DNA of 25,450 nt, from positions 1 to 25,450 of the IMG/VR virus record IMGVR_UViG_3300006916_000342; one strand, written 5' to 3'. Below are positions 4,940 through 9,236 of the stretch, one piece after another. The notes below the pieces were generated by a model. The model made no database searches. It saw only the letters and a list, made by a program, of their open reading frames with translations, and was not told where the DNA came from. How positions within the stretch are numbered: position 1 is the first letter of the stretch; every line of letters begins with the position of its first letter. Both the position numbers and the translations under genes were made by a program. Source of the stretch: a virus.

Positions 4940-5351
4940 TATTGAACAGGCTATTGGGGTATTGATTAAGATAGCAAATACGGCTTGGGTAAAAGAAAAA
5001 CCACAAGTAGAAAAATGGGCTGACGAAGCCCTAACCTACATCCGCGCCGTGCAGGAACGGCAAGCGGTTGATGTTTGGGGGGTGAGATATGCTGCCCAAC
5101 ATGAAGAAATACCAGATGATGATTATAGCGAAGGCTATGAAGTTGGCTGGAACGACTGCCTTGACCACCTAGCCGAACAAGGCCACATCTTAACAAGCGA
5201 TTATGTCGCGCCAGCAGTAACCAAAGAAGAAGCACAGGCGGCTTATGATTGGTATAAGGGCTTTCTCAACGAAGGAGACAGCGTTTACGATTTAGATAGA
5301 TACGCAGGAGAAACAATCAAAAAACTACTAAAGCAAGCAGGGGCAGAGTGA
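4932..5351 (+). CDS. Hypothetical early protein
   Basis: This 139-residue acidic protein has no recognised domain. It begins with a helical stretch (NDIEQAIGVLIKIANTAW), has a central YSEGYEVGWNDCLDHLAEQG motif of the kind seen in small phage accessory proteins, and ends with a helix (YAGETIKKLLKQA). The start overlaps the previous gene by eight bases, and the TGA stop overlaps the excisionase-like ATG by one base. Tight coupling suggests expression with the integration genes, but the role is unknown. Confidence 0.6.
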   Translation: MNDIEQAIGVLIKIANTAWVKEKPQVEKWADEALTYIRAVQERQAVDVWGVRYAAQHEEIPDDDYSEGYEVGWNDCLDHLAEQGHILTSDYVAPAVTKEEAQAAYDWYKGFLNEGDSVYDLDRYAGETIKKLLKQAGAE

Positions 5352-5734
5352 TGGAGCTGAATAATTTACCTGATATGTGTACGCCTGGTCACGTTGCGGA
5401 CTTCCTGCATGTGGATAAACGCCATGTAAAAGACTTGTGCAAAAGCGGAAAGCTGTCATATCTTAAAATTAACTCGCATCATATCAGAATACCCAAAAAC
5501 AGTATCAAGGTTTATATCGAAAGACACCTATGCCAAGAAAAAACAAAGGAATACAAGTCAAGTACAGAAAAGACCGAGAGTGTTGGGAACTCATCGAGTA
5601 TATCGGAGGAAAGCGTAAGCGACACGCAACTGGCTTCAGCTGCCGTGAACATGCTGAAGAAAAACTTGCAGAAATCATCGTCCAAAGACAAAAACCACAA
5701 AAAGGCGAACATCTATCAATTGGCAAGGTCATAG
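5351..5734 (+). CDS. xis: Excisionase-like helix-turn-helix protein
   Basis: This 127-residue protein starts with a winged helix-turn-helix of the excisionase/MerR type: CTPGHVADFLHVDKRHVKDL (residues 10-29), then GKLSYLKINSHHIRIP with a basic wing, ending near residue 59. Proteins of this kind directly before an integrase act as recombination directionality factors, bending attachment-site DNA to favour excision. From residue 60 onward the chain is rich in lysine, serine and glutamate (KSSTEKTESVGNSSS), and all of it is encoded by DNA that also encodes the integrase start, in another frame. The tail may be disordered. The start ATG at 5351 is preferred over the GTG three bases earlier. The excisionase role is inferred from fold and position. 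Confidence 0.7.
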   Translation: MELNNLPDMCTPGHVADFLHVDKRHVKDLCKSGKLSYLKINSHHIRIPKNSIKVYIERHLCQEKTKEYKSSTEKTESVGNSSSISEESVSDTQLASAAVNMLKKNLQKSSSKDKNHKKANIYQLARS

Positions 5735-6585
5735 CTTATTACATCAATGAGCATGTACCTACATTAGCAAACCCCAGAACAGCTATACTATGCTTTGAGC
5801 GCCTTATTCCTTATTGGAGCGAGATAAAAGTAAAAGACATTAGGAAATCGCTCTGCCTTAACTACCTAGAACACAGAAGAACAGAATTTAATGCTTGGCA
5901 AGAAGAGGGCGGCTACAGCAAGCGCAGAACTTTATCCGATGAAACAGTCAGGCGTGAATTAGAGCAGCTACAGGCGGCTATACGCTATGCACATAAAGAC
6001 AATATCCTTGATACGTACCCGGCAATATGGAAGCCCAGAAAATCTAAATCCCGTAGTCGATGGCTAACCAAAAAAGAAGCGGCAAAGCTACTAAGAGCTA
6101 CAGATCAATTAAGGTCTGCAAGTCACTACATGAAGCTATTCATACTTATAGGCCTATACACTGGCGCTAGAAGCGATGCAATCCTGTCTTTAAGATGGGA
6201 GAATATAGATTTGGATAGAGGATTTATTGATTTTAGGAACGCGCAGAAAAGCGCTAACAAACAAGCTGCTATAGTTCCTGTACCTAAAAGGCTTATGCGA
6301 GAGCTTGGGGCAGTTAAAAATGATGTTGGGTACGTTATAACATTAGATGGTAAGAAGATAGGGTCTGTTAAGACGTCATTTAGACGCTGCTGCGCTATAG
6401 CAGGGCTTGACGATGTGACACCGCATACTCTAAGACATACGGCTGCATCGTGGATGGTGCAAAAGGGAGTGCCGCTTTTTGAAGTTGCAAAATACCTTGG
6501 ACATTCAACATCAATGATGATAGAGAAAACCTACGGACATTTAGCGCCAGATCATTTAAGAAGAGCAAGCGAATCTTATGGGTAA
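5530..6585 (+). CDS. int: Tyrosine-family site-specific integrase
   Basis: This 351-residue tyrosine recombinase integrates and excises the phage at attP/attB. Residues 1-55 (GIQVKYRKDRECWEL, GGKRKRHATGF) form the arm-binding domain, 60-165 the core-binding SAM-like domain, and 170-345 the catalytic domain. Catalytic residues are R214 (GLYTGARSD), probably K240, H299-x-x-R302 (HTLRH), H325 (LGHST) and nucleophile Y335 (TYGHL). The set is complete, so the enzyme should be active. The next in-frame methionine is residue 201, so ATG 5530 must be close to the true start. This puts the first 205 bases inside the excisionase-like gene. The stop at 6583-6585 overlaps the first arm-type repeat of attP. 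Confidence 0.94.
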   Translation: MPRKNKGIQVKYRKDRECWELIEYIGGKRKRHATGFSCREHAEEKLAEIIVQRQKPQKGEHLSIGKVIAYYINEHVPTLANPRTAILCFERLIPYWSEIKVKDIRKSLCLNYLEHRRTEFNAWQEEGGYSKRRTLSDETVRRELEQLQAAIRYAHKDNILDTYPAIWKPRKSKSRSRWLTKKEAAKLLRATDQLRSASHYMKLFILIGLYTGARSDAILSLRWENIDLDRGFIDFRNAQKSANKQAAIVPVPKRLMRELGAVKNDVGYVITLDGKKIGSVKTSFRRCCAIAGLDDVTPHTLRHTAASWMVQKGVPLFEVAKYLGHSTSMMIEKTYGHLAPDHLRRASESYG

Positions 6586-6605
6586 CAGCCCCAGATACTG
6601 CCCCA
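6585..6605. repeat. Left pair of probable integrase arm-type sites
   Basis: ACAGCCCCA (6585-6593) and ACTGCCCCA (6597-6605) are nine-base direct repeats differing at one base, with starts 12 bases apart. The same word occurs as a pair on the far side of the tRNA half. Paired direct repeats, one helical turn apart, on both sides of a core site are the usual layout of arm-type binding sites for tyrosine integrases. Confidence 0.6.
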
Positions 6606-6624
6606 ATAATGATTTTAAAAGCTT

Positions 6625-6653
6625 TTGAGTGTCTTATAACTTATTGATTTTAT
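6625..6653 (+). promoter_or_regulatory. Candidate promoter for the tRNA half
   Basis: TTGAGT (6625-6630) and TTTTAT (6648-6653) are spaced by 17 bases and lie six bases before the tRNA-like sequence starting at 6660. Such a promoter would drive the tRNA gene restored after integration. Both boxes are imperfect and the region is AT-rich, so chance is possible. Confidence 0.35.
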
Positions 6654-6659
6654 TAATAA

Positions 6660-6703
6660 GGGCCTGTAGCTCAGTTGGTTAGAGCAGTCCGCTCATAACG
6701 GGT
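6660..6703 (+). other. attP: attP core: 5' half of a tRNA with anticodon CAT
   Basis: The sequence reads as a tRNA up to the end of the anticodon arm: acceptor strand GGGCCTG (6660-6666), TA, D-arm GCTC (6669-6672) with loop AGTTGGTTA and GAGC (6682-6685), then anticodon stem GTCCG (6687-6691), loop CTCATAA (6692-6698) and CGGGT (6699-6703). The variable loop, T-arm and 3' acceptor strand are absent downstream. The anticodon is CAT, and the body is more like an isoleucine tRNA than a methionine one, so this probably matches tRNA-Ile2(CAT) or elongator tRNA-Met of the host. Flanking arm-type repeats and the adjacent integrase mark it as the phage attachment core, with crossover probably in or near the anticodon arm. 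It is not a functional tRNA gene as it stands. Confidence 0.75.
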
Positions 6704-6782: not shown

Positions 6783-6802
6783 ACTGCCCCATAACTGCCC
6801 CA
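6783..6802. repeat. Right pair of probable integrase arm-type sites
   Basis: ACTGCCCCA occurs at 6783-6791 and again at 6794-6802, with starts exactly 11 bases apart and the same orientation as the left pair. Together with 6585-6605 this gives two pairs around the tRNA core. A weaker related word, ACAGCCTCA, lies at 6751-6759. The arm-site role is inferred. Confidence 0.6.
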
Positions 6803-6904: not shown

Positions 6905-6937
6905 GTAAAATGGCAGGGGTTGTCGCCCCCGCCATAT
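6905..6937 (-). terminator. Rho-independent terminator of the late operon
   Basis: Read on the - strand, ATGGCGGGGG pairs with CCCCTGCCAT (6926-6935 with 6910-6919) with a single mismatch around a six-base loop, followed by TTTTAC. It sits just past the stop of the last late gene (6941), so it probably ends the long right-to-left operon and protects attP and int from late transcription. Confidence 0.7.
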
Positions 6938-7394: not shown

Positions 7395-9236
7395 TTATTC
7401 TACAGTAATTCCTCTAGCTGCTAGGCGTGTTACAGTTCGATCATATATCGATGTAAGCGCCGCTGAATTTTTGGCAGTATCGAATATAATAAATTCTGCG
7501 TAATCACAGCCGGCGGTGTACGAGGCATTATCGTACTGCACATCGCCTATACCGAAATCAACGGAAGCCTGTGCAAGATTGTTGTTAGCACCCGAAGTAT
7601 TAATGATAGGTGATGATGCATCACCAATATAATCTACGCGGCTTGTGTTGCTGGAGAACGAGATAGCCATAAACACCCATTGGTTTGTCGGAACGGGGTT
7701 AAGAACATTAACCGTTGACTGATCCCTAATATTCGACTTAATAATGTTTGACCCCACAAACATACTTCCGCCATCATCAGGACCCAAGTTGCCGAAAAGG
7801 AAACGATTGCTAGTGTTTGGCATCCTAACCACTGCGCATATTGTAAATGTTGTCTCATCCGCCCCGAACTCAGATTGCAGGCCGTTTAGTTGCTCAGTTG
7901 CCAAGGTTAAGTAACCACTGGAATTAGTCGGTGTTGATGTTACTGGTGTAAGAGCGCTTCCTGAAATAGAGTCTAAGAAAGATGTATTATCAGTACCAAA
8001 CACCCAGTGCCCTAAAGCTCCGCTTTCTGTTGAAATACTAGGGCCGGTCGCCGCCCCCGCTGATAGAGTTGCGTCATTAGCCGTTACGGTGAACGAGGCC
8101 ACCCCAGCGCCTAGCACATAGCTTCTAATTATTGTTGCAACGTTAGCTGTTACAGAGACCGCTAGAGTTCCGGCTGACAAAGCACTGTCCATCGTTAGTG
8201 TGGCATCATTAGCTGTGATGGTTATCCCTAAAGTTTCTGCGGACAGAGTGGCTGGTGTCGATATGTCAGTAGTTACATCGTTTACCGTTACAGTAACCGC
8301 TAAGGCTTCAGCTTCTAGTTCTACTGCTGTAGTTGCCGACAATGTAGCGGCATTCGCTGTTACCGTAATTGATAGCGTTTCAGCGTCTAATGTTCCGCCG
8401 TTTATTAGAGCAGAAGCTAAAGCTGTGTAATAGCGCTCCCCTAATGTTCTTTGTGCGGCTGCGCTAAAATGCAGGCTATCGCCGCCGTCTGATAAATCAT
8501 CAGTTTCAACAAAAGCGGTGTATGGAACTCTGTTAGGCGTGTCTTCTATTGCCGCGCTTATGTCCGCGTCATATCCTGTTGACCAGTCCGCGATATCACC
8601 TGCAATAAATGGTGTTGAACTTGTCGCTCCGTCTATGTCTGATCTCCAGCCGGAAATCAATGCATCAAGTTGCGCTGCATACTGGGCTTCTGTGTAATCG
8701 CCATTATCATCTTCGCCTTGATGCCATAGGATAGCCACAAGATTTGTACCGCTATCGCCTGCTGCGATTGCTGCTTCTACTTGTGTAATTGCACCATTGT
8801 AACCTGTGCCGCCATCTTGCCAATACGTGTCTTGAAATCCTGTCGCCCCCTTGGCTGTAGGAACTAATAGTATCTTTCTGGTTGGGTTATCTGCTAAGTA
8901 TTGCTTTGCGAAGGTCATACCCATACCGATAGTGTTTGCTGTTTCACCATCATGGTCTAGTGGGTCATTTGCTAGGACTACCTTATGGCCGTTCCACCCG
9001 TATTGGAATATACGTTCATCGGGTGCGTCTAGAACTTCATCTATAGAACCGTTCCTCCCAATCATATTAGATTGTCCGGCCAATAGAATAACATCGTAAT
9101 CTGTATTTGCAGGAGAGTATAGAACTGCGTCATTTATTGTAACGTCTATACTTAAGCCGCTTGCTGAAAGAGTAAAAGGGTCACCTGAATTTATCGACCC
9201 GACTCCATTTATCCCCAGCCCTAAACCTAATCTCAT
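7395..9236 (-). CDS. Tail protein with SGNH carbohydrate esterase domain, tandem repeats and LamG-like domain
   Basis: This 613-residue protein has three parts. Residues 45-280 resemble sialate O-acetylesterase/carbohydrate esterase family 6: GQSN with nucleophile S56, WHQGED at 171-176, and D253-x-x-H256 in GDSLHFS. This enzyme would remove acetyl groups from a surface polysaccharide. Residues 281-400 hold five repeats of about 23 residues with consensus LsAetLavtVTaNDATL, and a sixth copy lies before the esterase at residues 21-40, so the enzyme appears to be set inside a repeat array. Residues 400-613 look like a concanavalin/LamG-type sugar-binding domain (GHWVFGTDNTSFLDSISG, NQWVFMAISFSS). 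Phage deacetylases such as G7C gp63.1 act in host recognition. I infer the same role here. It begins ten bases after the o-spanin stop. Confidence 0.78.
   Translation of the reverse strand: MRLGLGLGINGVGSINSGDPFTLSASGLSIDVTINDAVLYSPANTDYDVILLAGQSNMIGRNGSIDEVLDAPDERIFQYGWNGHKVVLANDPLDHDGETANTIGMGMTFAKQYLADNPTRKILLVPTAKGATGFQDTYWQDGGTGYNGAITQVEAAIAAGDSGTNLVAILWHQGEDDNGDYTEAQYAAQLDALISGWRSDIDGATSSTPFIAGDIADWSTGYDADISAAIEDTPNRVPYTAFVETDDLSDGGDSLHFSAAAQRTLGERYYTALASALINGGTLDAETLSITVTANAATLSATTAVELEAEALAVTVTVNDVTTDISTPATLSAETLGITITANDATLTMDSALSAGTLAVSVTANVATIIRSYVLGAGVASFTVTANDATLSAGAATGPSISTESGALGHWVFGTDNTSFLDSISGSALTPVTSTPTNSSGYLTLATEQLNGLQSEFGADETTFTICAVVRMPNTSNRFLFGNLGPDDGGSMFVGSNIIKSNIRDQSTVNVLNPVPTNQWVFMAISFSSNTSRVDYIGDASSPIINTSGANNNLAQASVDFGIGDVQYDNASYTAGCDYAEFIIFDTAKNSAALTSIYDRTVTRLAARGITVE

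Follow-up and report, generated by a model that had tools for sequence, protein, structure and literature searches.

A P22-like phage carries the 5' half of tRNA-Ile2(CAT) after its integrase gene and would rebuild the front of the host gene with phage DNA

Which end of a host tRNA gene would a phage supply if its attachment site carried the 5' half of that gene, and behind which promoter would the rebuilt tRNA then stand? This question is raised by IMG/VR record IMGVR_UViG_3300006916_000342, of which the whole stretch analysed here, 25,450 bases and possibly a partial phage genome, is called the window. It holds the 5' half of a tRNA gene shortly after a tyrosine integrase gene (int), with phage genes flanking it on both sides. 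We consider, at a probability of about 0.88, that integration of this temperate phage rebuilds the 5' end of the host tRNA-Ile2(CAT) gene with phage DNA and displaces the host front end together with its promoter. The features on which this reading depends are as follows.

5530-6585, plus strand: tyrosine integrase gene int, 351 aa, matching Pfam Phage_integrase (E 2e-23) plus a SAM-like domain.
6585-6605, plus strand: int-side pair of direct repeats, ACAGCCCCA-GAT-ACTGCCCCA (3-nt spacer), putative integrase arm sites.
6660-6701, plus strand: 5' half of tRNA-Ile2(CAT), running from the acceptor strand through the D-arm and anticodon loop to 3 nt into the 3' anticodon stem; identical to tRNA positions 1-42 at 17 bacterial loci.
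6687-6703, plus strand: anticodon stem-loop; the core and crossover region of the integrase are predicted here from the overlap of tRNA pieces carried in the 5' and 3' modes.
6783-6802, plus strand: far-side pair of direct repeats, ACTGCCCCA-TA-ACTGCCCCA (2-nt spacer), putative integrase arm sites.

The tRNA half (GGGCCTG...CTCATAACGG, 42 nt) was searched against a collection of 84,980 genomes and was found at 17 loci in 17 bacterial species, in each case as the first 42 bases of a complete tRNA of 77 nt with a CAT anticodon. Divergence begins at tRNA position 43, where hosts read CGG|ATTGGTC and the phage reads CGG|GTTTATT, and judged from the sequence an exact 42-nt identity with a tRNA gene cannot be put down to chance. 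The initial annotation had described the piece as a tRNA 5' half with anticodon CAT and had pointed to a host CAT tRNA sharing its first 42 bases. These proposals hold, with no 3' half found alongside the piece; the site had been drawn to 6703, although the match ends at 6701. The same annotation had left the target as either Ile2 or Met. Because the acceptor stem of the matched gene contains C4-G69 and C5-G68, which we take to be determinants of lysidine synthetase, the gene was called tRNA-Ile2(CAT), and the Met option is dropped; a second, different CAT tRNA of the elongator-Met type is present in several of the matching genomes (G008, G014, G006 and G015). In the genomes examined tRNA-Ile2(CAT) is single-copy. 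The matching genomes belong in 14 of the 17 cases to the order of G010 (labelled Micavibrio sp.), in which 14 of 142 genomes are positive, while of the other three, two are of Rhodobacteraceae type and one is labelled Porticoccaceae. The host is likely a member of the Micavibrio group.

The region between the int stop (6585) and the tail-side genes (from 6941) is recognised as the phage attachment site (attP) from its layout, since the tRNA half begins after a gap of 74 nt from the tyrosine integrase gene and has on either side a pair of direct 9-mer repeats, positioned as integrase arm sites would be; the initial annotation had also called it attP. In the two flanks, three near-copies of ACTGCCCCA (at most one mismatch) were observed against 0.02 expected in shuffles, a figure that is flattering as the motif was picked post hoc; the fourth repeat unit is likewise one mismatch off, but begins one base ahead of the counted stretch. 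The far-side pair begins 82 nt past the end of the tRNA match, an offset that is identical in a related prophage of genome G137, and the stem-loop at 6687-6703 is separated from the arm pairs by gaps of 81 and 79 nt. The same arm layout was seen in the prophages of G137 and G025 and in the Rhizobium phages RHph_Y1_10 and PPF1.

The proposed outcome can be seen complete in a relative, the G137 prophage. G137 is from the same order as G010, and its integrase is 33% identical to that of the window. Here a complete tRNA-Thr(GGT) comes after int and points the same way, and a displaced tRNA fragment of bases 1-40 (40 nt) lies at the far end, 33,315 bases (33.3 kb) away, with terminase, major head, tape-measure and tail-fibre genes in the interval. 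When the two G137 flanks were joined, they aligned with the sister genomes G136 and G138 as a single block of ~385 bases covering promoter, tRNA and downstream DNA. G136 and G138 represent the uninterrupted site, where a host promoter of the TTGACA type stands immediately before the tRNA; this conserved host promoter remains with the dead tRNA fragment in G137. The G137 fragment (1-40) and the window piece (1-42) both stop 3 bases into the 3' anticodon stem, and arm pairs of the form ACCGCGCCA-2-ACCGCCGCCA are found on both sides of the G137 element. These results showed that 5'-type tRNA integration works in this integrase family, and the earlier claim that such integration restores the 5' end of a tRNA and cuts the gene from its own promoter is seen directly in G137.

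By analogy, the same outcome may be proposed for the phage of the window, whose attP carries the tRNA 5' half on the int side of the core. Recombination would take place inside the 42-nt identity block, with the crossover probably in the anticodon loop. The int end would then consist of phage int, phage upstream DNA, the phage-borne tRNA 5' half and the host 3' half, together an intact tRNA gene, and its junction would read the int tail (6500-6659), the 42-mer and ATTGGTC. At the far end, the host promoter and host 5' half would run into phage DNA as a dead fragment, with a junction reading host DNA, the 42-mer and GTTTATTACCC. Given this geometry, the restored tRNA would be transcribed from phage-side DNA, presumably either from a weak promoter within the 74 nt or by transcription that continues out of int. 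Several observations weigh against this reading. The window and G137 integrases are not sisters in the integrase tree and share the 33% identity given above. No prophage or junction of this phage was recovered from viral_contigs, where the exact 38-nt core piece, the left flank and the right flank were all without a match. Finally, a promoter scan called no convincing promoter upstream of the tRNA half. The last point concerns the following element.

6625-6653, plus strand: promoter-like hexamers TTGAGT (6625-6630) and TTTTAT (6648-6653) separated by 17 nt; a weak match of 8 out of 12 consensus positions.

These hexamers had been proposed initially as a promoter. The letters are present as written, but the match does not exceed chance expectation: TTTTAT, the second hexamer, lacks A as its second base, a score of 8/12 or better in the same position range arose in 42% of dinucleotide shuffles of the 74-nt gap, and the scan left the hexamers uncalled. 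By the same crude measure, however, the upstream regions of host tRNA-Ile2 genes score 6-9/12, and therefore the 8/12 of the window neither shows nor excludes a promoter. An alternative that concerns transcription only, and that is compatible with the rebuilding of the tRNA front by phage DNA, is that the tRNA is expressed by read-through from int or another phage gene with no promoter in the gap; we regard this as a serious possibility, at somewhat less than even odds. Integrase genes are usually silent in lysogens, while the sole AUA-reading tRNA is constantly needed, and a promoter in the gap could still work at a low score given those of the host regions. On the other hand, int points toward the tRNA across the gap, no terminator is predicted within it, its promoter score is at chance level, and in archaeal elements of the pTN3 type, according to a review, the integrase promoter drives the tRNA (PMC8371274).

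Two rival explanations of the 5' half were weighed. In tRNA-dependent lysogeny, as defined for mycobacteriophages and Gordonia phages, the common core is short and unable to restore the tRNA, and the whole cognate tRNA is phage-encoded; tRNA-Ile2-CAT is discussed in that work (PMC10865867). Such phages resemble the window in having a tyrosine integrase, an essential tRNA as target and a lysogen that relies on phage DNA for that tRNA, and the window may lack part of the phage genome in which a tRNA could be encoded. However, those systems destroy the gene and make up for it with a complete phage tRNA, whereas here it would be rebuilt from two halves; the identity is not the ~10 bp of that mode but 42 nt, the whole 5' half, and across the 25,450 bases ARAGORN found no whole tRNA and Rfam gave only a sub-threshold tRNA match (25.1 bits, cutoff 29), which leaves this explanation very improbable. 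Equally remote is conventional 3'-half integration with the 5' half as a relic of an earlier lysogen junction left by imprecise excision. A 5'-type lysogen does leave such a fragment at its far end, as in G137, and one could imagine a stray copy arising in this way. Yet the match in the window is perfect, it occupies the place expected of the core, on the int side and with the arm pairs symmetrical about it, there is no 3' half beside it, and G137 shows the 5' mode to be functional in the family.

How unusual the rebuilding of a tRNA 5' end is within the family was assessed from a non-redundant set of 49 related integrase loci in which a tRNA piece could be recognised after int. The 5' half was found only in the window and G137, against 47 loci of the 3' kind; 25 loci have the 3' half or a whole tRNA facing int, and 22 have the 3' half pointing away, although some of the latter rest on short T-arm matches and the 25/22 split is approximate. 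Locus L019 (G008:C35) carries bases 29-77 of tRNA-Ile2(CAT) about 86-134 nt past the int stop, with no 5' half, and G008 also holds an intact, exactly matching tRNA-Ile2(CAT); it is probably a conventional island at the same target gene. Since the window carries tRNA bases 1-42 and the G008 element bases 29-77, the two modes overlap only in bases 29-42, the anticodon stem-loop. In G025, another conventional relative, the prophage carries tRNA bases 27-77, an intact tRNA-Val faces the integrase, and the arm pairs lie ~80 nt from the stem-loop on each side (distances counted by hand). The arms are spaced as in the window, and therefore arms and integrase share one layout and only the direction of the tRNA core differs. 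Two loci considered as additional 5' cases, L053 and L120, were rejected as their tRNA matches turned out to be 3' fragments. Six viral contigs with integrases 37-38% identical to that of the window (L069-L073 and L075) had no recognisable tRNA piece within 500 nt after int; in the tree, L069 adjoins the integrase of G137. When viral_contigs was scanned with the integrase as a single protein, no relative was returned, and searches of genomes at the level of the order yielded no closer integrases. The tree gave no support for a shared origin of the two 5' cases, since its well-supported branches force two changes.

The arrangement is not new in kind. Cases of integration at the 5' region of tRNA genes have been recorded, but the 3' mode is far commoner (PMC6563490), and the Islander search strategy allows for 5' fragments upstream of the tRNA (PMC4383910); since reviews already describe such integration, the window adds to a known, rare kind. 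Like known 5'-type elements, which recombine at the 5' part of a tRNA gene, replacing its upstream region, the window has an attP with the 5' end of the tRNA and without its 3' end, and its own traits are a P22-like phage, the target tRNA-Ile2(CAT) and a 16-3-like integrase. With the pTN3-like archaeal integrases (Cossu et al. 2017, via PMC8371274) it would share expression of the restored tRNA from the element side, a situation seldom met in bacteria; pTN3-type integration, however, splits the int gene (PMC8371274) and belongs to another domain of life, whereas int of the window ends before the core.

The closest named relatives of the window integrase are those of Rhizobium phages (35% identity over the full length). 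In 16-3, RHph_Y1_10, PPF1 and phi3LM21, whose integrases are 28-35% identical to it, attP lies just after int. Phage 16-3 has an annotated excisionase gene (xis) overlapping int by 226 nt and an annotated functional attP with a 23-bp core directly after int, the core lying ~110 nt from the stop, and RHph_Y1_10 and PPF1 have repeated arm-like motifs right after int and again beyond the core, as in the window. The corresponding xis candidate is the following.

5348-5734, plus strand: small helix-turn-helix (HTH) gene, Pfam HTH_17 (E 4e-9).

This gene overlaps the start of int by 205 nt in a different frame and, to judge by its domain and position, is likely xis. The window thus fits the 16-3-like module in its related integrase, overlapping putative xis, core ~110 nt after int and putative paired arm repeats on both sides. 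It departs from the usual, though not strict, family habit of carrying the tRNA 3' half. In phi3LM21 the attP region has a 3' tRNA part that faces int and is annotated as tRNA-Pro(CGG), and 16-3, RHph_Y1_10 and PPF1 have closely similar sequence there; these phages therefore keep the host promoter, unlike what is proposed for the window.

Elsewhere in the window, ERF and YqaJ recombination genes accompany the HTH gene and int on the plus strand, and a P22-type coat protein and portal are encoded on the minus strand. The portal is 100% identical in three more IMG/VR fragments (L178, L179 and L181), and the virus has therefore been assembled more than once; records with a matching portal (these three at 100%, the rest at 31-40%), mostly fragments, gave no integrase match. 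A GC-rich inverted repeat spotted by eye at 6911-6934 (GGCAGGGG...CCCCCGCC), between attP and the tail genes, is perhaps a terminator; it has no T-run and the scan does not call it. A large protein of the tail region, encoded at 7395-9236 on the minus strand, has a sialic-acid-specific acetylesterase (SASA) domain and may be a tail protein that modifies a receptor.

Most phages leave the promoter of the tRNA gene untouched, whereas one that replaces the front of the gene has to provide for the transcription of an essential RNA as well, and host viability would be tied to the prophage. G137 and its empty-site sisters offer a clean natural comparison, with the same tRNA behind host or phage upstream DNA, and the loci together form an unusually clear comparison set for 5'-type tRNA integration; this integrase family also allows one to ask why the 5' mode is rare. 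The near-symmetry of attP, with arm pairs ~80 nt on each side of a quasi-palindromic anticodon stem-loop, suggests a more speculative idea that we hold as doubtful, namely that it lets the tRNA core flip relative to int and has repeatedly yielded phages in control of the transcription of an essential, single-copy host tRNA. If this were true, then with tRNA-Ile2 as the sole reader of AUA, the amount of it available in a lysogen could go up or down along with the activity of phage genes.
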